DNA of 29,125 nt, taken from the IMG/VR virus record IMGVR_UViG_3300033153_005492, positions 1 through 29,125 of that record; one strand, written 5' to 3'. Positions 6,576 to 27,268 of the stretch are shown here, one piece after another. Origin of the DNA: a virus. Made by a program: the position numbers and the translations under genes. The notes below the pieces were generated by a model, which was not told the DNA's origin, ran no database searches, and saw only the letters and a program-made list of their open reading frames with translations. Within the stretch, counting starts at the first letter, position 1. The number at the start of each line of letters is the position of its first letter.

Positions 6576-7631
6576 ATGGGTAAATATGATAACTTAACAA
6601 GACACGTTGCAAAAGCAGTTGAAACAAGACCGTTTAAAGAGAGATTCTTCGAACCATTCTTTCCTATGACTGATATTCACAATCAAGAATTGGTAGAGTT
6701 TGATGATAAAGCTTATAAAAATGGTATCGCACCATTTGTAAATCCGTTAAAAGACGGTAAGCCAGTTGAAAGAGAAGGATTTAATAACAATATCCTAAAA
6801 CTACCAACTATGAAACCATCAAAGCTATTAACATCTAAAGATTTAGATAAAAAACCATTTGGCGGAACTGTATATGATGCAACTGCTAAAAATGCTATTG
6901 CAAGACAGCTTGTAACTGGTGCGGTTGATGATAATGAAAGTAGACTTGATGTAAGACTTGAAGTTATGAGAACAGACGCACTATTTAACAACAGTCTTAC
7001 TATTGTTGGTGAAGGTGAAGATCGTGTAGTAACATTTGGTAGAGCAGCGGCAAACACAGTTGATCTTGGTGCTGGTGACTATTGGGATGAAGATAATACA
7101 TTGCTTGATGGTGATGTTAGAAGCTTTATTGCTCTTCTTGCTGCTAATGGTAAAAGTGCTACTCACATGGTTGGTAGAAGTGAAACAATGTCTGTAATTG
7201 TAGGTATTGTAAAAGGTCTTACTGATTATAGAAGAATTGAAAACGGAGCATTGAGATTTGAAAATATGCTTTCTGTAGATGGCTCAATCTATGAAGGTAA
7301 TTATCTTGGTATTGAGCTTTGGAGTTATGACGGTGTTTATATTGATGCTGATAATGCAACTCAAAAATCAGTCCCAGCTAAAAAAGTAGTTGTACTTTCT
7401 GCACAAAATGAAAACGAAATGTCTTATGGATATGCATCTGATATTGTATTAGAGCTTAATCTTGCAGAATCGTTTGATGTTTCAGCTAGAAATGTTATTA
7501 CTAAGCTTAAAGCTCAATCATCAGCAGTTGAAATTGAATCTGTACTTACAGCAGCACCATTGCTTAAAGATCACCATTGCTTAAAGATCCGAATTCAACA
7601 CTTGTTGCAACCGTACTGGTATAAGGAGTAG
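6576..7631 (+). CDS. Major capsid protein E, C-terminus frameshifted
   Basis: This is the main shell protein, of the lambda gpE family, 351 aa. The N-terminal part has the characteristic RPFKERFFEPFFPMTDIHNQELVEFDDKAYKNGIAPFV-type segment, and later MVGRSETM and ELNLAESFDVSARNVI. The last 20 or so residues are anomalous (KDHHCLKIRIQHLLQPYWYKE). They begin exactly where a 17-bp sequence is tandemly duplicated (7555-7588). Removing one copy gives LLKDPNSTLVATVLV and a stop at the equivalent of 7622-7624, joined to GGAG as ribosome binding site of the next gene. The present reading frame therefore has a substituted tail about eight codons longer than that short ending. Whether the altered protein still assembles is unknown. 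Confidence 0.93.
   Translation: MGKYDNLTRHVAKAVETRPFKERFFEPFFPMTDIHNQELVEFDDKAYKNGIAPFVNPLKDGKPVEREGFNNNILKLPTMKPSKLLTSKDLDKKPFGGTVYDATAKNAIARQLVTGAVDDNESRLDVRLEVMRTDALFNNSLTIVGEGEDRVVTFGRAAANTVDLGAGDYWDEDNTLLDGDVRSFIALLAANGKSATHMVGRSETMSVIVGIVKGLTDYRRIENGALRFENMLSVDGSIYEGNYLGIELWSYDGVYIDADNATQKSVPAKKVVVLSAQNENEMSYGYASDIVLELNLAESFDVSARNVITKLKAQSSAVEIESVLTAAPLLKDHHCLKIRIQHLLQPYWYKE
7555..7588 (+). repeat. 17-bp perfect tandem duplication in capsid gene
   Basis: The unit CACCATTGCTTAAAGAT occurs at 7555-7571 and again, identically and directly adjacent, at 7572-7588. Because 17 is not a multiple of three, it shifts the frame of the capsid gene near its end. The restored frame ends in TAAGGAG at 7622-7628, the compact stop plus ribosome binding site seen elsewhere in this genome. 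Confidence 0.95.
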
Positions 7632-17931: not shown

Positions 17932-18711
17932 ATGCAAAAACCAAAATTAGTAGATAACGCAACACCAGGTTTAGAATTTCAAGATTCATCAACATCAGAA
18001 GCACTTGATGGAACTATTGTAAGGGCAACATTTCAAAATGATAATTTTGGAAATTTATTTAAGCTTGTGGAGAGTGCTGGATATACTCTTATAGATAATG
18101 ATTTATCACAAGTAGCAAAAGCGGTAAGAGGTTTATATAACGCTACTTTCACATACAATACATCTGCAATAGCAACACAAACAGTTGATGATATTGTATT
18201 GGGTAGTGACGGGGTTTATTATAAAGCTTTGGAAGATGGTATAAATGATGATGATCCCGTAGGTAGTGTAACTGGAGATTGGGAAGTATATCAAGATATA
18301 AATTCTAAACTTTCAGACGTTGTTGATGATACCACACCTCAACTAGGGGGGGATTTGGACTTCAACGGGAAGACAGCCAATAAGTCAGCAGTAAGACAAA
18401 TAGAAGATGCGACTTTGGGAACTGGTACACACACATTTGATTATGAAAATGGCGATATGCAACAACTTACCGTAACTGGTAATATTACTTTGGCTTTTAT
18501 CAATTTCCCAAGTGGTGATGTAGGTGGTGGTTCAATTCAATTAATAAACGCAGGTGCATACATTATCTCATATCCATCTGGTACTGAATTTGTTATGAAA
18601 GAAGAGCCAATTTTTACAGCTTCGGGAATGGATGAAATTTTAGTGAGACAAGATAAAGATGATGTGGTTTCATTATTTGTTGTTGGTCAAGATATCGGTG
18701 TACCTGCGTAA
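17932..18711 (+). CDS. Tail fibre protein
   Basis: This 259-aa fibre-type protein directly follows the baseplate genes, where the proximal fibre is expected. Its N-terminus (LVDNATPGLEFQDSSTSEALDGTIVRATFQNDNFGNLFKLVESAGY) resembles collar-attachment segments of fibres. Residues of about 75-110 form a small YNTS.IATQTVDDIVLGSDGVYYKAL module like those that bind the chitin-like or cell surface. The C-terminus (LTVTGNITLAFINFPSG..GGSIQLINAG) is a compact beta domain that recurs at the end of the 615-aa protein at 23064. The target is unknown. It overlaps the next gene by one base. Confidence 0.72.
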   Translation: MQKPKLVDNATPGLEFQDSSTSEALDGTIVRATFQNDNFGNLFKLVESAGYTLIDNDLSQVAKAVRGLYNATFTYNTSAIATQTVDDIVLGSDGVYYKALEDGINDDDPVGSVTGDWEVYQDINSKLSDVVDDTTPQLGGDLDFNGKTANKSAVRQIEDATLGTGTHTFDYENGDMQQLTVTGNITLAFINFPSGDVGGGSIQLINAGAYIISYPSGTEFVMKEEPIFTASGMDEILVRQDKDDVVSLFVVGQDIGVPA

Positions 18712-20235: not shown

Positions 20236-22173
20236 ATGATAAAATACTTATTGGATATGCGAGTACCAGGAGCTAATAATTCAAATGTAATTAGGCATAT
20301 TCCTTATGGATCTGTAGTCCTTGCCAACATCATCTACACAATGGAGCACAAAACAGTCGATAAGGACATCTATCTTGATAACTCAGGTTCAGACGGTGAC
20401 GCATCGGACGCTTTGGGGTATGTGGCTAGTGGGCTTGAATTGAGTGGTACTGCTTATATTGATACACAATTGGATTATACTTTGGGTAGTGAACTCATGA
20501 CGGTATCTCCTACAATCGCCTATGGTAGTGAAACCAGTACCATAACCACACCAACTACAGATAGCCTAAATGTTGCAGTTACTGTAACTGGAACTTCATA
20601 TAATAAACCTTCTATAAGTTATGACTTAGGCTTAGAAGAAGGAAGTTCCTATAAATTAAGTTTTGATTTTTTAGAGAATATAGATTTATTACAGCAAATG
20701 ACTATATATTTAGGTGGTGTTATTGTAGAACAAAATGCATGGAAGCCTACAGATGGTAGCTATGAGTACATAATCACTGATGACGGTACATGGGGTACAG
20801 GATTGTTTACTATATATATGGATGGTAGACAATTATCTGACTTTTCAATGACTAATATGTCCGTAAAAAAAATAACATTCAATACAGAGTCACTTTGGGT
20901 ATACGACTACTCAACAAATACTTTTGATATAAGAGAAAACTTTACAGATACTAAAGAAAGAATTGAGTTGGGTGTATATGGACACTACTTTGAACTTCAC
21001 GCTACTCACAATGCAAACGATGTAACACTGCTTAATGCTAATCCTGAACTGGTGCTTAGAATGTTGAAGGGTGATACTGAAACAGGGCTGAGTTTTAATG
21101 CTAGTAATGTGGTTGACTATATGCAACCCACTAGAGAGTATGAGGACTTAGTGCCAGATTTAACCACAGAGTTATTGTATCCAGTCAAAGACTTTGCTTC
21201 AATAGTTAATGCTTTTGGTGGTGCTGTTTATGCACACAGCTATACTCCTTATGTTTTAGACCTTGCTGTAACTGCAGTTGGAACAGCGACCTATTATCCA
21301 AGAGCCAAGTACACGATAGATGCAATAGATGAAGAATATTCTGTATTGCGTTTTGATGCTATAATAAATAGTGGAACAGCGATAATAAACAGAGTCATGT
21401 GGAATAATAGTACCGATTATGTAAATCTTGGAGAGATACAAGATGGGGTGAATGAATTTATAATCCTAACAAAAAATAAAACAGCTACAAACTTTTATCT
21501 TGCAATGGACGGTACGAAGTTATTTGATATATCAATTTCTAATCTATCAGTAGAAGGTTTGGTATCCGATGAGATTATAAATCACGTAGGCGACACAGCC
21601 TACACAAACGCAGACCAGCAAACAAAAGGCGTGCCAATGACGATGTTCAAGCGGGATAGTTTGGGTAGGGTTACTGATTTGGCGGATGAGAATACTATTG
21701 AGTTTAATGGTGATAATATTTTCTTTGACCCTGACTGGACACCGAATAGTGATGTGGATTGGTCATTAAGTATTATGCTTTATTTTAAGACTGAATCAAC
21801 AATACAAAGAATTGGTACATCATCTAATAATGGACTATATTTTAATATGCACACAAATGGAAGACTCTACCCGTATGCACTCGGAAAAGCTCTCCAATGG
21901 TTAAATATGCCTACAGGATGGTTTTTAGCACATGTGACTTATGACGCTACTCTTAAAGAAATAAATTTCTATAAAAATGCAGTAATAACCCCAACTATAG
22001 CAGATATAACAGCTACAAACACAGAGGTATTTAAAATTGGACATACAGGACTTGCAGGATATGAACCACTAAACCCTGTTGGGATAACAAGAATACACAA
22101 GGAAAAAGTGTTATCACAAACTGAGATAGATGCAGAGCTTTTAGAGATGGATGCATTATATCTAATACCATAA
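20236..22173 (+). CDS. Large lectin-like tail adhesin
   Basis: At 645 aa this is the largest fibre-region protein and the best receptor-binding candidate. It contains two divergent beta-sandwich segments resembling carbohydrate-binding modules. One lies at about residues 80-205 (ending SDFSMTNMSVKKI) and one at about 325-450 (ending FDISISNLSVEGL). A LamG/concanavalin A-like domain occupies about 490-645, with WSLSIMLYFKTESTIQRIG, WFLAHVTYDATLKEINFYKN and a final TRIHKEKVLSQTEIDAELLEM helix. It has no signal peptide. No catalytic motif is seen, so it probably binds sugar rather than cleaving it. Domain calls are by pattern and not by search. Confidence 0.68.
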   Translation: MIKYLLDMRVPGANNSNVIRHIPYGSVVLANIIYTMEHKTVDKDIYLDNSGSDGDASDALGYVASGLELSGTAYIDTQLDYTLGSELMTVSPTIAYGSETSTITTPTTDSLNVAVTVTGTSYNKPSISYDLGLEEGSSYKLSFDFLENIDLLQQMTIYLGGVIVEQNAWKPTDGSYEYIITDDGTWGTGLFTIYMDGRQLSDFSMTNMSVKKITFNTESLWVYDYSTNTFDIRENFTDTKERIELGVYGHYFELHATHNANDVTLLNANPELVLRMLKGDTETGLSFNASNVVDYMQPTREYEDLVPDLTTELLYPVKDFASIVNAFGGAVYAHSYTPYVLDLAVTAVGTATYYPRAKYTIDAIDEEYSVLRFDAIINSGTAIINRVMWNNSTDYVNLGEIQDGVNEFIILTKNKTATNFYLAMDGTKLFDISISNLSVEGLVSDEIINHVGDTAYTNADQQTKGVPMTMFKRDSLGRVTDLADENTIEFNGDNIFFDPDWTPNSDVDWSLSIMLYFKTESTIQRIGTSSNNGLYFNMHTNGRLYPYALGKALQWLNMPTGWFLAHVTYDATLKEINFYKNAVITPTIADITATNTEVFKIGHTGLAGYEPLNPVGITRIHKEKVLSQTEIDAELLEMDALYLIP

Positions 22174-22182
22174 GGAGAAAAT

Positions 22183-22605
22183 ATGAATAATAGTACAACA
22201 GAACGGTATGGATTTGTTTTTATCATACCTATAGCACTAAAAGATACACCTATTAATTTTGCAAAATTTGCGAAGTACGATGAAGAGGGTGTTGAAATAG
22301 GAAAACACTCTTATGTAGAATGGTGTAATGCTGACCATCATGAATATACGGAAACTCCCTCGGGAACACATGTTCTATTGGGAGCTAATATTACTTCTAC
22401 AAAAGTACGAAAAAAATTTGAAGATGAGCTTGAAGGTACTCCTTTTACAGTACATGACGGTGAAGATGTGGAACAATGGACGGATGAAAATCAAGACTAT
22501 CATCTTTGGATTGTTCCTACAGAACCTAAGCTTGCTTATGGATATAACGTGTTTGTGAAAGTGTCACCATTGTTTAAGGAAGAAAACTATAAGGAAACAA
22601 CATGA
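22183..22605 (+). CDS. Hypothetical protein after adhesin
   Basis: A 140-aa protein that I do not recognise. It is soluble, fairly acidic and rich in His/Trp/Tyr: WCNADHHEY in the middle and EDVEQWTDENQDYHLWIVPTEPKLAYGYNVFVKVSP near the end. GGAG precedes the ATG (22174-22177). Its stop overlaps the start of the following outer-membrane protein gene (ATGA), which hints at coupled expression. It might be a fibre chaperone or another accessory gene. There is no direct evidence. Confidence 0.55.
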   Translation: MNNSTTERYGFVFIIPIALKDTPINFAKFAKYDEEGVEIGKHSYVEWCNADHHEYTETPSGTHVLLGANITSTKVRKKFEDELEGTPFTVHDGEDVEQWTDENQDYHLWIVPTEPKLAYGYNVFVKVSPLFKEENYKETT

Positions 22606-22991
22606 AAAAATTACTACTAATCGCATTACTAACACTAGGGCTTTCAGCAAATCCGTACTTTGGCTTTGGCGGTACGTTGACAGATAAAAAAGAGGATTGC
22701 AGGGCATATGCTCTTGTATTTGTAGGCTATCAGTTTAATGATAAGTTTGCAGTAGAGGGCAGATATTCTCACATCATGCGTGGGGATGCTCAGTATGCGA
22801 ATATATATACAAAGCTTAAAATTTACAAAGATGCATATGGTCTTATAGGGTTTGAGCAACCTATCAACTCTATCAAAAAATATTCTAATGCCAACTTTGG
22901 TCTTGGATATGAAATTGGTAATGTAGGCTTTGAGGTGGTGTATAAGCATACACAAGATGCTTTAACATCTAATGTAGTATTTAGGTTTTAA
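22602..22991 (+). CDS. Small outer-membrane beta-barrel protein (moron)
   Basis: A 129-aa protein with a clean Sec signal peptide (MKKLLLIALLTLGLSA, cleavage before NPYFGFGG). The mature part alternates hydrophobic and polar residues in strands and ends with phenylalanine (VVFRF), the usual signal for the outer-membrane assembly machinery. It looks like a small OmpA/OmpW- or Opa-like barrel of about 113 residues. Lambda encodes the outer-membrane protein Lom in an equivalent place, near the tail-fibre genes. Such proteins can alter host surface properties or block superinfection. The barrel call is pattern-based. The gene overlaps the upstream stop by 4 bases and has AAGGA before its ATG. Confidence 0.68.
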   Translation: MKKLLLIALLTLGLSANPYFGFGGTLTDKKEDCRAYALVFVGYQFNDKFAVEGRYSHIMRGDAQYANIYTKLKIYKDAYGLIGFEQPINSIKKYSNANFGLGYEIGNVGFEVVYKHTQDALTSNVVFRF

Positions 22992-23043: not shown

Positions 23044-23063
23044 AACTTAATTAAAGGGATAAG

Positions 23064-24911
23064 ATGAAAAAATTAATATTAATAGGATGTATTCTATTAT
23101 TGCCATTTACGGCAAATGCATACGATAAAACAATATGGCTAGACGCGGATGATCCGTTGTTTATTCCTGGAGAAAGTCCAGCTTTGAGTGCATCTAATTT
23201 AAACAAAATAGAGCAAGGTATCCAGGATGCAGAAAGTGCTGGTGCTGGTGATATGAAAAAGCTTGTTTATGATGTAGATATTAGTGGAGTTGTTGATGAT
23301 TCTGAAAAAGTCAATGGGCTAACTGTAGAAACAAATGTGCCAATAGGTGCATTATTTACAGACACAACATATCCAGATGCAACAGCAACAATAGGAGGTG
23401 TATTGACAGATGCACAAGCCGTAAAACTTAATGGTGCATTAGATGAAGTATCACAAGATGGAATATATCTACAAGGTAGCGGCATAATTGGCGATATACT
23501 TACATTTTCAGATGATATGCAAACTGCATTAAGATTTTTTGTAGGTACTACTTTTAAGGATGTTCAAGGAAATATATCATCAGATGGATTAGAAGTAAAA
23601 GCACAAGTTGAAGCATTAGGTGGTGGTGATATTAGATATATTACATCTACTGGTACAAATACTTTAATTTGTACTCCTTCACCACAAGAAATAACACTTA
23701 TTGATGGTACAGATTCAGTACCACAAATAAATTATATCTATATAGATACACCAACAAATACATTAACCGTAAGTACTACAAGTTTTCCAACACTAACAGA
23801 ATATGTACCATTAGCGGTAACATACATTGGTAGTGCGAATTTAGTCCAAAACGAAGGTACATATAAAACTCATAAATGGTCAGATCACATTTATACAGAA
23901 GGCGATAACGGTCACATGAGCCATATAAATAAATGGATTAGAAGCCAACACGCTACATGGATTTCTGGAAATGCATTAGGATATACAGGTAGCGGAACAT
24001 CAACAATAAATATATATGTATCATCTGGTGCAATGTTTCAATTACATCAACATTCTACATCACAAATAGTATCACCAGCATCAACCTATATAATGAATGA
24101 TGAAATTACACCATTTTTAAAGACAAACAATATTGCATCGATCACAACAGATTCAAACGGGATTAGTATAAACAACAGATATGCACCTTTAGTTGTTTGG
24201 TACGCACATTCAGAACTACCAAACGATGCAAAATTATATATAAACAAACCTTCTGGATCTTATAGTTCAGAAGCAGATGCAAGATCAGATGCCCAAAAAT
24301 ATTCAAACTTTTCAATTCCAACAGAATTTAAAGGAACTGCCGTATTAATTCATAGATTAATTATTAGAAATTCTGGCGGGGTTGTTACAATTTACGACGG
24401 TGCTGGTGATGATTTAAGGGGTACTACTCCTGGTTCTGCATCTGGATCATCGACATCTGTAGGGTCTACTTTTCTTGATTCAACATTTAGAGTGCAAAAT
24501 ATAGCAGATACAACAAAACAGATTGATTTAGATGCATCAAATATATCAACTGCAACAATAAGAACAATAACTATGCCAGATGAAGATATAAATCTGATCA
24601 ATGTAGGTAATAGTATTGAGGTGATTCCATATGCAGTAAATATAACATTAGATTTAATACTCAACAATAAGCACAAAAGTACTTTAACGGGTAATTTAAC
24701 AATGAACGCACCTTCTAATATTGTAGGTGGTCAAAGTGGGTATATAACTTTGGTTCAAGATGTATCAGGTGGAAGAATCACCACATGGGATAGTGTATTT
24801 ACATTTTTAAATACAGATAGCACAGACACATCACCAAACAAGATAAACATATATAGATACATAGTATATAGTGCGTCAAAAATTGGGTTAGAGTATGTGG
24901 GTACACTATAA
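23064..24911 (+). CDS. Fibre-like protein with Sec signal peptide
   Basis: A 615-aa protein whose first 19 residues are a clear Sec signal peptide (MKKLILIGCILLLPFTANA). The next segment, WLDADDPLFIPGESPALSASNLNKIEQGIQDAESAG, is typical of fibre N-termini. A stalk module with DISGVVDDSEKVNGLTVETNVPIGALFTDTTYPDATATIGGVL follows, then a large middle part. The C-terminal beta domain (STLTGNLTMNAPSNIVGGQSGYITLVQDVSGGRITTWDSVFTF) is related to the end of the fibre at 17932. A signal peptide on a fibre-type protein is odd, because phage fibres are assembled in the cytoplasm. It may be a moron-type surface protein. AAAGGGA precedes the ATG. Confidence 0.7.
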   Translation: MKKLILIGCILLLPFTANAYDKTIWLDADDPLFIPGESPALSASNLNKIEQGIQDAESAGAGDMKKLVYDVDISGVVDDSEKVNGLTVETNVPIGALFTDTTYPDATATIGGVLTDAQAVKLNGALDEVSQDGIYLQGSGIIGDILTFSDDMQTALRFFVGTTFKDVQGNISSDGLEVKAQVEALGGGDIRYITSTGTNTLICTPSPQEITLIDGTDSVPQINYIYIDTPTNTLTVSTTSFPTLTEYVPLAVTYIGSANLVQNEGTYKTHKWSDHIYTEGDNGHMSHINKWIRSQHATWISGNALGYTGSGTSTINIYVSSGAMFQLHQHSTSQIVSPASTYIMNDEITPFLKTNNIASITTDSNGISINNRYAPLVVWYAHSELPNDAKLYINKPSGSYSSEADARSDAQKYSNFSIPTEFKGTAVLIHRLIIRNSGGVVTIYDGAGDDLRGTTPGSASGSSTSVGSTFLDSTFRVQNIADTTKQIDLDASNISTATIRTITMPDEDINLINVGNSIEVIPYAVNITLDLILNNKHKSTLTGNLTMNAPSNIVGGQSGYITLVQDVSGGRITTWDSVFTFLNTDSTDTSPNKINIYRYIVYSASKIGLEYVGTL

Positions 24912-26231: not shown

Positions 26232-26460
26232 TCTAAAATGCCCTAAGACTGTTTACCCCGAAATTGTTGCTATTGATAAAATCAAAAAAGATAGAAGTAT
26301 TGTTTTTAGAGAAGATGGATCACTAAATATTGAAGATGGTCAAAAATTAGGCAGAATGGTTAAATCTTTATTTATTGTGCAGCACTACTATTATACTTCA
26401 ATTACAGACTATACACTTCTAACAGATAAATTAATGTCCGACAATATAAAAGGCAATTAG
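26155..26460 (+). CDS. o-spanin lipoprotein (Rz1-like)
   Basis: A 101-aa lipoprotein with signal peptide MKILILPIMIILYSLAMTGC and lipobox LAMTGC. Cys20 is the expected lipidation site after signal peptidase II cleavage. It starts inside the Rz-like gene, overlapping it by 77 bases in a different frame, with GAGGAG upstream. It is longer than lambda Rz1 and not proline-rich. The C-terminal half (MVKSLFIVQHYYYTSITDYTLLTDKLM) is helical. The overlap with the i-spanin gene and the lipobox together support the call. Confidence 0.75.
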   Translation: MKILILPIMIILYSLAMTGCTQRANDLKCPKTVYPEIVAIDKIKKDRSIVFREDGSLNIEDGQKLGRMVKSLFIVQHYYYTSITDYTLLTDKLMSDNIKGN

Positions 26461-26463
26461 ATA

Positions 26464-26565
26464 ATGAACATAATACTACCAGTAGCAGGCAAAGACATAC
26501 CAGTACCGAGAAAAGAAGCCAAAAAACTATATTTGGTTTTAAAAGAAATATTTGAGGAGAAGTGA
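26464..26565 (+). CDS. Small ORF, 33 aa
   Basis: Reads MNIILPVAGKDIPVPRKEAK, then KLYLVLKEIFEEK. It lies in a compact lysis cassette, begins four bases after the o-spanin stop, and overlaps the next start by one base (TGATG). AAAGG lies at about 26449-26453. No family recognised. The packing and coding look support a real gene; the function is unknown. Confidence 0.5.
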   Translation: MNIILPVAGKDIPVPRKEAKKLYLVLKEIFEEK

Positions 26566-26720
26566 TGAAAGCAAACAGAGAGACAACACTAAAACAACAT
26601 CAAGGCGAAAGAACAAAGTGCTTGGTCTATACGAGAGTTATGGGTTATCATAGACCAGTTGAAAGCTTTAATATTGGCAAGCAAGGGGAACATAAAGAAA
26701 GAAAGTTTTTTACATCATGA
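26565..26720 (+). CDS. 51-aa NrdD glycyl-radical-domain-like protein
   Basis: A short basic protein with the segment TRVMGYHRPVESFNIGKQGE. The RV-x-GY core followed by a Lys/Gly-rich FN.GKQ.E stretch matches the glycyl-radical C-terminus of anaerobic (class III) ribonucleotide reductase. Gly27 would be the radical-bearing residue. There is no catalytic domain, no CxxC zinc pair, and no full-length reductase in this window. Similar small proteins occur in other phage and plasmid regions. It overlaps the gene before it (TGATG) and the endolysin gene after it (ATGA). A spare-part role for a host reductase is possible but unproven. Confidence 0.6.
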   Translation: MKANRETTLKQHQGERTKCLVYTRVMGYHRPVESFNIGKQGEHKERKFFTS

Positions 26721-27268
26721 AAGTAGCTCTGATCGCTGGACACGATGAATTTTACAAAAGAGGTGCGGTAGCATTTGGAATAAGTGAAAATGAATATATG
26801 ACTTCACTTGTAAATGATATACATTTTCTATCAAAAAATATTTATGGAATAGAAACAAAAGTATTCAAGCGTCCTAATCAAAAGATACACGGATATAAAG
26901 GTGCTATGCGTATTCTTCATGGAGAAATAGATGAATGGGGTGCTGATCTTGATATAGAGTGTCACTTTAACGCTTCAAAAAGTCCAGCCAAAGGGCATGA
27001 AATTTTATATCTAATTGGATCAAAAGGTGGTGCAAAATATGCAAATATGCTTGATAAGCACTTTGATAATCGTCTACCAAACAGAGATAGGGGAATAAAG
27101 CCTATTAAAAGGGGTGATAGGGGATTTTATGGACTTAAGGTAGGGAAATCCTCATCTATACTAACAGAAGCGTTTTTTGGCAAGGAATTGGAATCATTTA
27201 TAGAGGGTGGCACTTTAAGAATAAATCTTATAAATGCCTATATTGAATTTTTAAAAGAGTTGTCTTAA
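26717..27268 (+). CDS. Endolysin, N-acetylmuramoyl-L-alanine amidase
   Basis: This 183-aa enzyme cleaves the amide bond between muramic acid and the stem peptide, and is the likely endolysin. It matches the zinc-dependent amidase_3 family: His9 in IAGHDEFYKRGAV, an acidic residue in SENEY (Glu24 or Glu26), His83 in ECHFNAS, and the catalytic Glu151 in ILTEAFFG. It has no signal peptide, so it needs a holin to reach the cell wall. The start overlaps the small NrdD-like gene. Its stop codon overlaps the stop of the opposite-strand gene. Confidence 0.9.
   Translation: MKVALIAGHDEFYKRGAVAFGISENEYMTSLVNDIHFLSKNIYGIETKVFKRPNQKIHGYKGAMRILHGEIDEWGADLDIECHFNASKSPAKGHEILYLIGSKGGAKYANMLDKHFDNRLPNRDRGIKPIKRGDRGFYGLKVGKSSSILTEAFFGKELESFIEGGTLRINLINAYIEFLKELS

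Follow-up and report, generated by a model that had tools for sequence, protein, structure and literature searches.

A predicted signal peptide is reported for PblB of S. pneumoniae NTUH-P15, a phage tail protein that functions as an adhesin; in S. mitis, phage induction releases PblB, which binds to viable cells (PMC4508584). The signal peptides named in a study of phage proteins belong to a spanin, an endolysin, an internal virion protein and a hypothetical protein, with no fibre among them (PMC10194101), and a survey of the target proteins of phage DGRs found no signal peptides (PMC6199706). In phage lambda, Lom is a signal-peptide-bearing barrel that is expressed in lysogens and whose gene is flanked by the tail spike gene and the side-fibre genes (PMC12309495). 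The long fibre of cyanophage A-1(L) is anchored to the baseplate by its shoulder domain (PMC10966104).

Here we analyzed a virus record of 29,125 bases with 33% G+C, called the window throughout, in which the standard genetic code applies and TGA is read as stop. The late genes are arranged in the order terminase, portal, ClpP-like protease, capsid genes, sheath, tape measure, hub and baseplate J; the baseplate gene is akin to those of SfV-type myophages. Baseplate J is followed by gpI-like and tail-fibre genes, then by the ORF at 23064-24911 (615 aa, ATG start, plus strand), and finally by small membrane genes and an Amidase_3 endolysin (26717-27268, plus strand). This ORF sits in the tail region, 5' of the lysis genes, as expected for a tail fibre gene. 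A search with the terminase gave no host, and the window genes examined include no recognisable integrase or repressor. Two small elements were seen ahead of the endolysin. A 112-bp stretch (26459-26570) is 95.5% identical to positions 7182-7293 of an otherwise different phage, L002, and encodes a 33-aa micro-ORF (MNIILPVAGKDIPVPRKEAKKLYLVLKEIFEEK) that stands ahead of unrelated genes in the two phages. A 52-aa ORF (26562-26720), alone before the endolysin, corresponds to the C-terminal tail of the anaerobic ribonucleotide reductase NrdD (TIGR02487 positions 549-579 of 581, E 6e-6).

The initial annotation had described the product of 23064-24911 as a fibre-like protein with a Sec signal peptide, and the leader features, the start, the A-x-A site and the hydropathy all confirm the signal peptide. 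The N-terminus reads MKKLILIGCILLLPFTANA, followed by YDK. Residues 1-19 (23064-23120) are composed of an n-region MKK, an h-region LILIGCILLLPF and a c-region TANA with the A-x-A site; cleavage by signal peptidase I is predicted between ANA and YDK. The positive n-region, the hydrophobic h-region and the A-x-A site are thus placed at the true N-terminus, as in proteins handled by Sec and signal peptidase I. The Kyte-Doolittle 9-mer peak is 3.42 in the leader versus a maximum of 2.16 in the remainder of the protein, and a second transmembrane-like segment was not found (beyond residue 35 the 19-mer hydropathy peaks at 1.12). Of 200,000 random 28-mers drawn with the mature composition, 265 reached 3.42, with KK and A-x-A not yet required; by this comparison, chance hydrophobicity was rejected as the origin of the leader. 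The leader also contains a lipobox-like LIGC. Its Cys is residue 9, which is too early for a normal lipoprotein signal and makes signal peptidase I the likelier enzyme. We infer that the predicted leader is used and cleaved after ANA.

A start-site check rejected the possibility that the leader is produced by one alternative start or a frame error. A Shine-Dalgarno-like AAAGGGA (23053-23059) is found 4 nt before the ATG, and the in-frame codons 5' of it are TAA AGG GAT AAG, so that the frame is open only three codons upstream. Alternative starts are present at TTG 13, TTG 32, TTG 41 and ATG 64. TTG 13 falls within the hydrophobic core, while starts from TTG 32 onward would trim or delete the fibre head described below; ATG 64 has no Shine-Dalgarno sequence. 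A start downstream of the signal was the finding that, according to the initial annotation, would overturn its reading. We consider it highly improbable that the protein truly begins at TTG 41 or ATG 64 and has no signal peptide: a GGAGA does lie 10 nt ahead of TTG 41, but AAAGGGA is close to ATG 1, a later start would remove the head that matches fibre profiles from mature residue 2, and a clean in-frame signal peptide would become an accident.

Behind the leader the protein is built like a fibre. The head, residues 20-57 (23121-23234; YDKTIW...LSASNLNKIEQGI), is of the fibre/minor-tail type and starts right at the predicted mature N-terminus. Mature residues ~2-101 match positions 4-105 of the phrog_37253 profile (E 0.0017); the other head matches are to the minor tail protein phrog_2012 (E 0.0026) and to a tail-fibre family (E 8.7e-4). 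Because these matches start at mature residue 2, the leader stands in for the initiator Met alone in an otherwise ordinary fibre; it is therefore an added part rather than a product of chance hydrophobicity. Judged from the sequence, it is near certain that an export signal has been fused to a complete fibre. The head is followed by a common fibre repeat, residues 58-105 (23235-23378; GDMKK..YD...VVDDSEKVNGLTVETNVP.GALFTDTTYPDATATIGGVLTDAQAVKLNG), which is 69-71% identical to its counterparts in L053/L054 and 88-92% identical to those in L057/L058. A conserved fibre module covers residues ~150-455 (23511-24428), and a C-terminal fibre-type domain covers residues 474-615 (24483-24908). The latter matches a protein of Phage C72C1 (30.5%, E 6e-7), the tail fiber of Caulobacter phage S2B (E 5e-4) and the tail-fibre family phrog_4549 (E 2.7e-4). 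The ORF consequently has the modules of a tail fibre or receptor-binding protein; the fibre modules claimed in the initial annotation are upheld by the repeat (69-92%), by the presence of the ~300-aa module in other phages and by the tail-fibre PHROG match of the C-terminus. Together with the signal peptide and the disfavoured downstream start, they give good support to the view that an export signal was added to an existing fibre gene.

The ~300-aa module has no counterpart in Pfam or PHROGs. Pattern and alignment searches identified it in fibre-like proteins of about 27 other IMG/VR viral contigs, with 31-64% identity. The near-invariant motif is D-N-G-H-x-x-H-x-x-x-W-I-R, with further conserved His positions; the His and Asp residues of the module could bind metal. 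An AlphaFold2 model of the module has most 10-residue blocks at pLDDT 84-97. The modelled fold of its first half, residues ~139-290, resembles baseplate shoulder domains. In the VIA comparison, which covers listed folds, residues 166-290 matched the shoulder of the A-1(L) long tail fibre (8kec) with Z 9.3 and rmsd 2.5 over 87 residues. The lactococcal p2 RBP (Z 7.5) and Bordetella MTD (Z 6.7) also matched, both within the range for which a common arrangement is warned of. A Foldseek search against the PDB gave no match at E<=0.001. The best matches in the viral library were phage proteins, one of which is named as carrying the major-tropism-determinant N-terminal domain. The mature fibre is probably a trimer.

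Full-length protein scans of viral contigs and genome contigs gave no relative. The same holds for a scan of 84,980 species genomes with the module alignment, which was based on two short peptide patterns and is weak evidence of absence. The closest module relative, L024 (62-64% identity), ends before the 5' end of its gene. The corresponding sequence (L024/L071) is a contig end of IMGVR_UViG_3300033153_009453, in which the fibre module is readable only with TGA as glycine. There are 40 in-frame TGA codons in the stretch, and 19 kb contain no ORF of at least 150 aa in the standard code versus 10 in table 25. A transfer of the fibre module between phages whose hosts use the standard code and phages whose hosts read TGA as Gly seems to have taken place.

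The initial annotation had proposed a comparison with homologues lacking the signal. Of 26 module homologues with intact 5' ends, all on distinct contigs, 24 have ordinary leaderless N-termini; the other two carry signal peptides (L042, MDNYIRIIILLLLSFRLSGQ; L051, MKKLTILLFLFISVLGYSQQ). The maximum-likelihood tree of the module indicated that the three leader-bearing proteins need three changes, all of them forced by strongly supported branches. The L042 and L051 fibres resemble the window fibre in having a signal peptide plus the ~300-aa module, and the L042 fibre also has a Peptidase_S74 chaperone; they differ from it in their head domains and occupy separate branches. The fibres of L014, L007/L028, L026 and L030 are 31-42% identical to the window fibre across residues ~150-500 and keep the motif, but they have no signal peptide and their N- and C-terminal modules are unlike those of the window fibre. 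The leader on a fibre thus looks recurrent but rare.

The fetched loci, a sample biased to fibre regions, contain 236 distinct ORFs of at least 300 aa, and six of these have such leaders: the window fibre, a run of four neighbouring genes in the L042 phage, and a fibre-like gene of L063. The latter (L063 623-2653) encodes a fibre-like repeat protein with a signal peptide (MFEKVWIAIIAGIVLACLCMAARG) and adjoins tail genes in an unrelated viral contig. A 460-aa ORF on the minus strand of L066 (10204-11586; G003), in a likely head-gene position, has a long hydrophobic N-terminus when read from its first start (MKKYFRLGLGLVVMTIVAICLAIF); this may reflect an overlong start call.

In view of these relatives we consider it quite improbable that the hydrophobic N-terminus is not used for export, the fibre being assembled in the cytoplasm and the segment serving as a membrane-contact tip or simply being tolerated. 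The fibre modules are otherwise wholly virion-like, as this would require; but the segment has all signal-peptide features, with A-x-A immediately before the fibre head, and similar leaders arose separately in other phages.

An exported fibre could still belong to the particle. The main rival to the explanation that we favour holds that the protein is a virion fibre: after export it would fold and form trimers in the periplasm, and it would dock on particles when lysis mixes periplasm and cytoplasm. This route is unlikely, even if several observations speak for it. The predicted mature N-terminus is a normal fibre head, and the shoulder-like fold is the part which anchors the long fibre of A-1(L) to its baseplate (PMC10966104). 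In L051 the leader-bearing fibre gene lies directly 3' of tape-measure and tail-tip-like genes, in the position of gp61 of Cellulophaga phage phi18:1, an MS/MS-identified tail protein. On the contig of L042 (L062 1536-10996) four consecutive genes each have their own signal peptide; three have tail-fibre matches (collagen, Peptidase_S74 and collagen) and one is without a family match. The location of the L051 fibre behind tail genes, and the fact that each of the four fibre-type genes recognised in the L042 phage bears a leader, suggest a virion role there. Hence the initial annotation may be wrong in its premise that export is not expected of a particle-bound fibre. On the other hand, phi18:1 gp61 is itself leaderless, literature searches gave no case of an exported fibre that docks after lysis, and the window phage has other, leaderless fibre candidates. 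We also considered whether fibres of Bacteroidota phages normally carry signal peptides, and rejected this idea; none was present in the inspected fibre and tail genes of phi18:1, phi38:1 (part) and P2559Y.

The other fibre candidates are two genes on the plus strand. The product of 17932-18711 has no leader, and its first ~115-120 residues share 54-55% identity with the product of the gene that follows the gpI-like gene in the related phages L003-L005; it is likely the virion fibre. The second (20236-22173) encodes a large leaderless tail-region protein of 645 aa with no family match. The leader-bearing fibre and the outer-membrane-protein-like gene next to it are both absent from the L003-L005 loci, and tblastn of the fibre against the loci of the three nearest relatives gave no match. 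The exported fibre would be accessory, because it is missing from these loci while the N-terminus of the other fibre is conserved there. The presence of another fibre with such an N-terminus also implies that the exported fibre is not the only host-binding fibre of the phage.

The adjoining gene (22602-22991, plus strand, 129 aa) is directly upstream of the fibre gene and has its own signal peptide (MKKLLLIALLTLGLSA). It is outer-membrane-protein-like on the basis of sub-threshold family matches, PF13505 (OMP_b-brl; E 5.7e-4) and an AcfA-family OMP (E 5.3e-4), both below the cut-off. The structure model, built from 2 sequences, is poor, with a pLDDT of 42. A homologue in L002 is 78% identical, and L002 shares with the window only this gene and the 112-bp element. 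A larger common block, extending to the fibre-like gene of 645 aa and to the small gene that precedes the outer-membrane-protein-like gene, was not supported by the comparison. The outer-membrane-protein-like gene is itself exchanged between phages. The fibre leader might be a copy of the leader of this neighbour: the two align with a score of 7 versus a mean of -14 and a maximum of 2 in 300 shufflings, but both are AT-rich signal peptides beginning ATGAAAAAATTA.

Such a neighbour raises the question of a moron. The two genes could be expressed in the lysogen, with the fibre as a surface protein that alters the bacterium's own adhesion or phage sensitivity, and the precedent for this is Lom, expressed in lambda lysogens from a gene that has the tail spike gene on one side and the side-fibre genes on the other (PMC12309495). 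A 72-bp gap 5' of the fibre gene, where neighbouring genes are mostly tightly packed, is also consistent with it. However, promoters in the region are not above chance (20 found versus 29.6 expected), the examined genes include no recognised integrase or repressor, and the neighbour lies outside the Lom/Ail family in the Pfam search, with no match up to E 1. We therefore regard the moron explanation as improbable.

The explanation that we favour, with a likelihood that we put somewhat short of even, is that the fibre is made late, is exported by way of Sec and has its role away from the virion, for instance by blocking receptors as a free protein. The in-frame fusion of a Sec signal peptide to a complete fibre would have created an accessory gene that is expressed with the late genes. 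After cleavage of the leader the mature fibre would accumulate in the periplasm and be kept apart from assembling virions. As an unattached receptor binder it could occupy receptors in that compartment, at the envelope, or once lysis frees it; occupied receptors might reduce superinfection of the cell making the fibre, or the number of progeny that adsorb to debris and already infected neighbours. An off-virion role is favoured because the gene is absent from the nearest relatives and adjoins an exported outer-membrane-protein-like gene. Against a free blocker, the mature fibre keeps a virion-type head and a shoulder-like domain, which a blocker would not need. Furthermore, we know of no partner that takes the mature fibre across the outer membrane. 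The proposal of the initial annotation that the gene was recruited for a secreted or surface protein is plausible overall on this evidence. The leaderless relatives, the other leaderless fibres of the phage and the absence of the gene from the nearest relatives are in its favour, while the virion-type head and the baseplate-shoulder-like domain oppose a full change of role.

More tentatively, and with appreciable doubt, exported phage fibres may be a recurrent, independently evolved class in unrelated tailed-phage lineages, which work off the particle or are matured in the periplasm and added at lysis. Such a class would break the rule by which the fibres of tailed phages are both made and assembled exclusively in the cytoplasm. 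Should the export of fibres be deliberate, receptor binders would be secreted tools for superinfection control, decoys or surface adhesins; alternatively, part of the particle would be assembled outside the cytoplasm. Either role, if true, would change the annotation of fibre genes and the prediction of host range, because not every fibre encoded in a genome would be on the particle.

The locus can finally be compared with the described systems. The A-1(L) gp34 shoulder (8kec), the p2 RBP shoulder and Bordetella MTD resemble the fibre module in fold, in one subdomain only; these are virion proteins, and no leaders are described for them. Lambda Lom, like 22602-22991, is the product of a small signal-peptide-bearing, outer-membrane-like gene beside fibre genes. 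It differs from the window gene in that the latter has no Lom/Ail Pfam match, and the lambda fibre itself is not known to be exported, whereas the window fibre has a leader. PblA and PblB of Streptococcus prophages are a precedent for the proposed role, as phage tail proteins that are found outside the particle and on cells; they come from Gram-positive hosts, and the likeness to the window fibre drawn here is one of description. The domain scheme of S. mitis PblB has no leader and its release occurs by phage-induced permeabilisation, whereas the window fibre carries a leader of its own.
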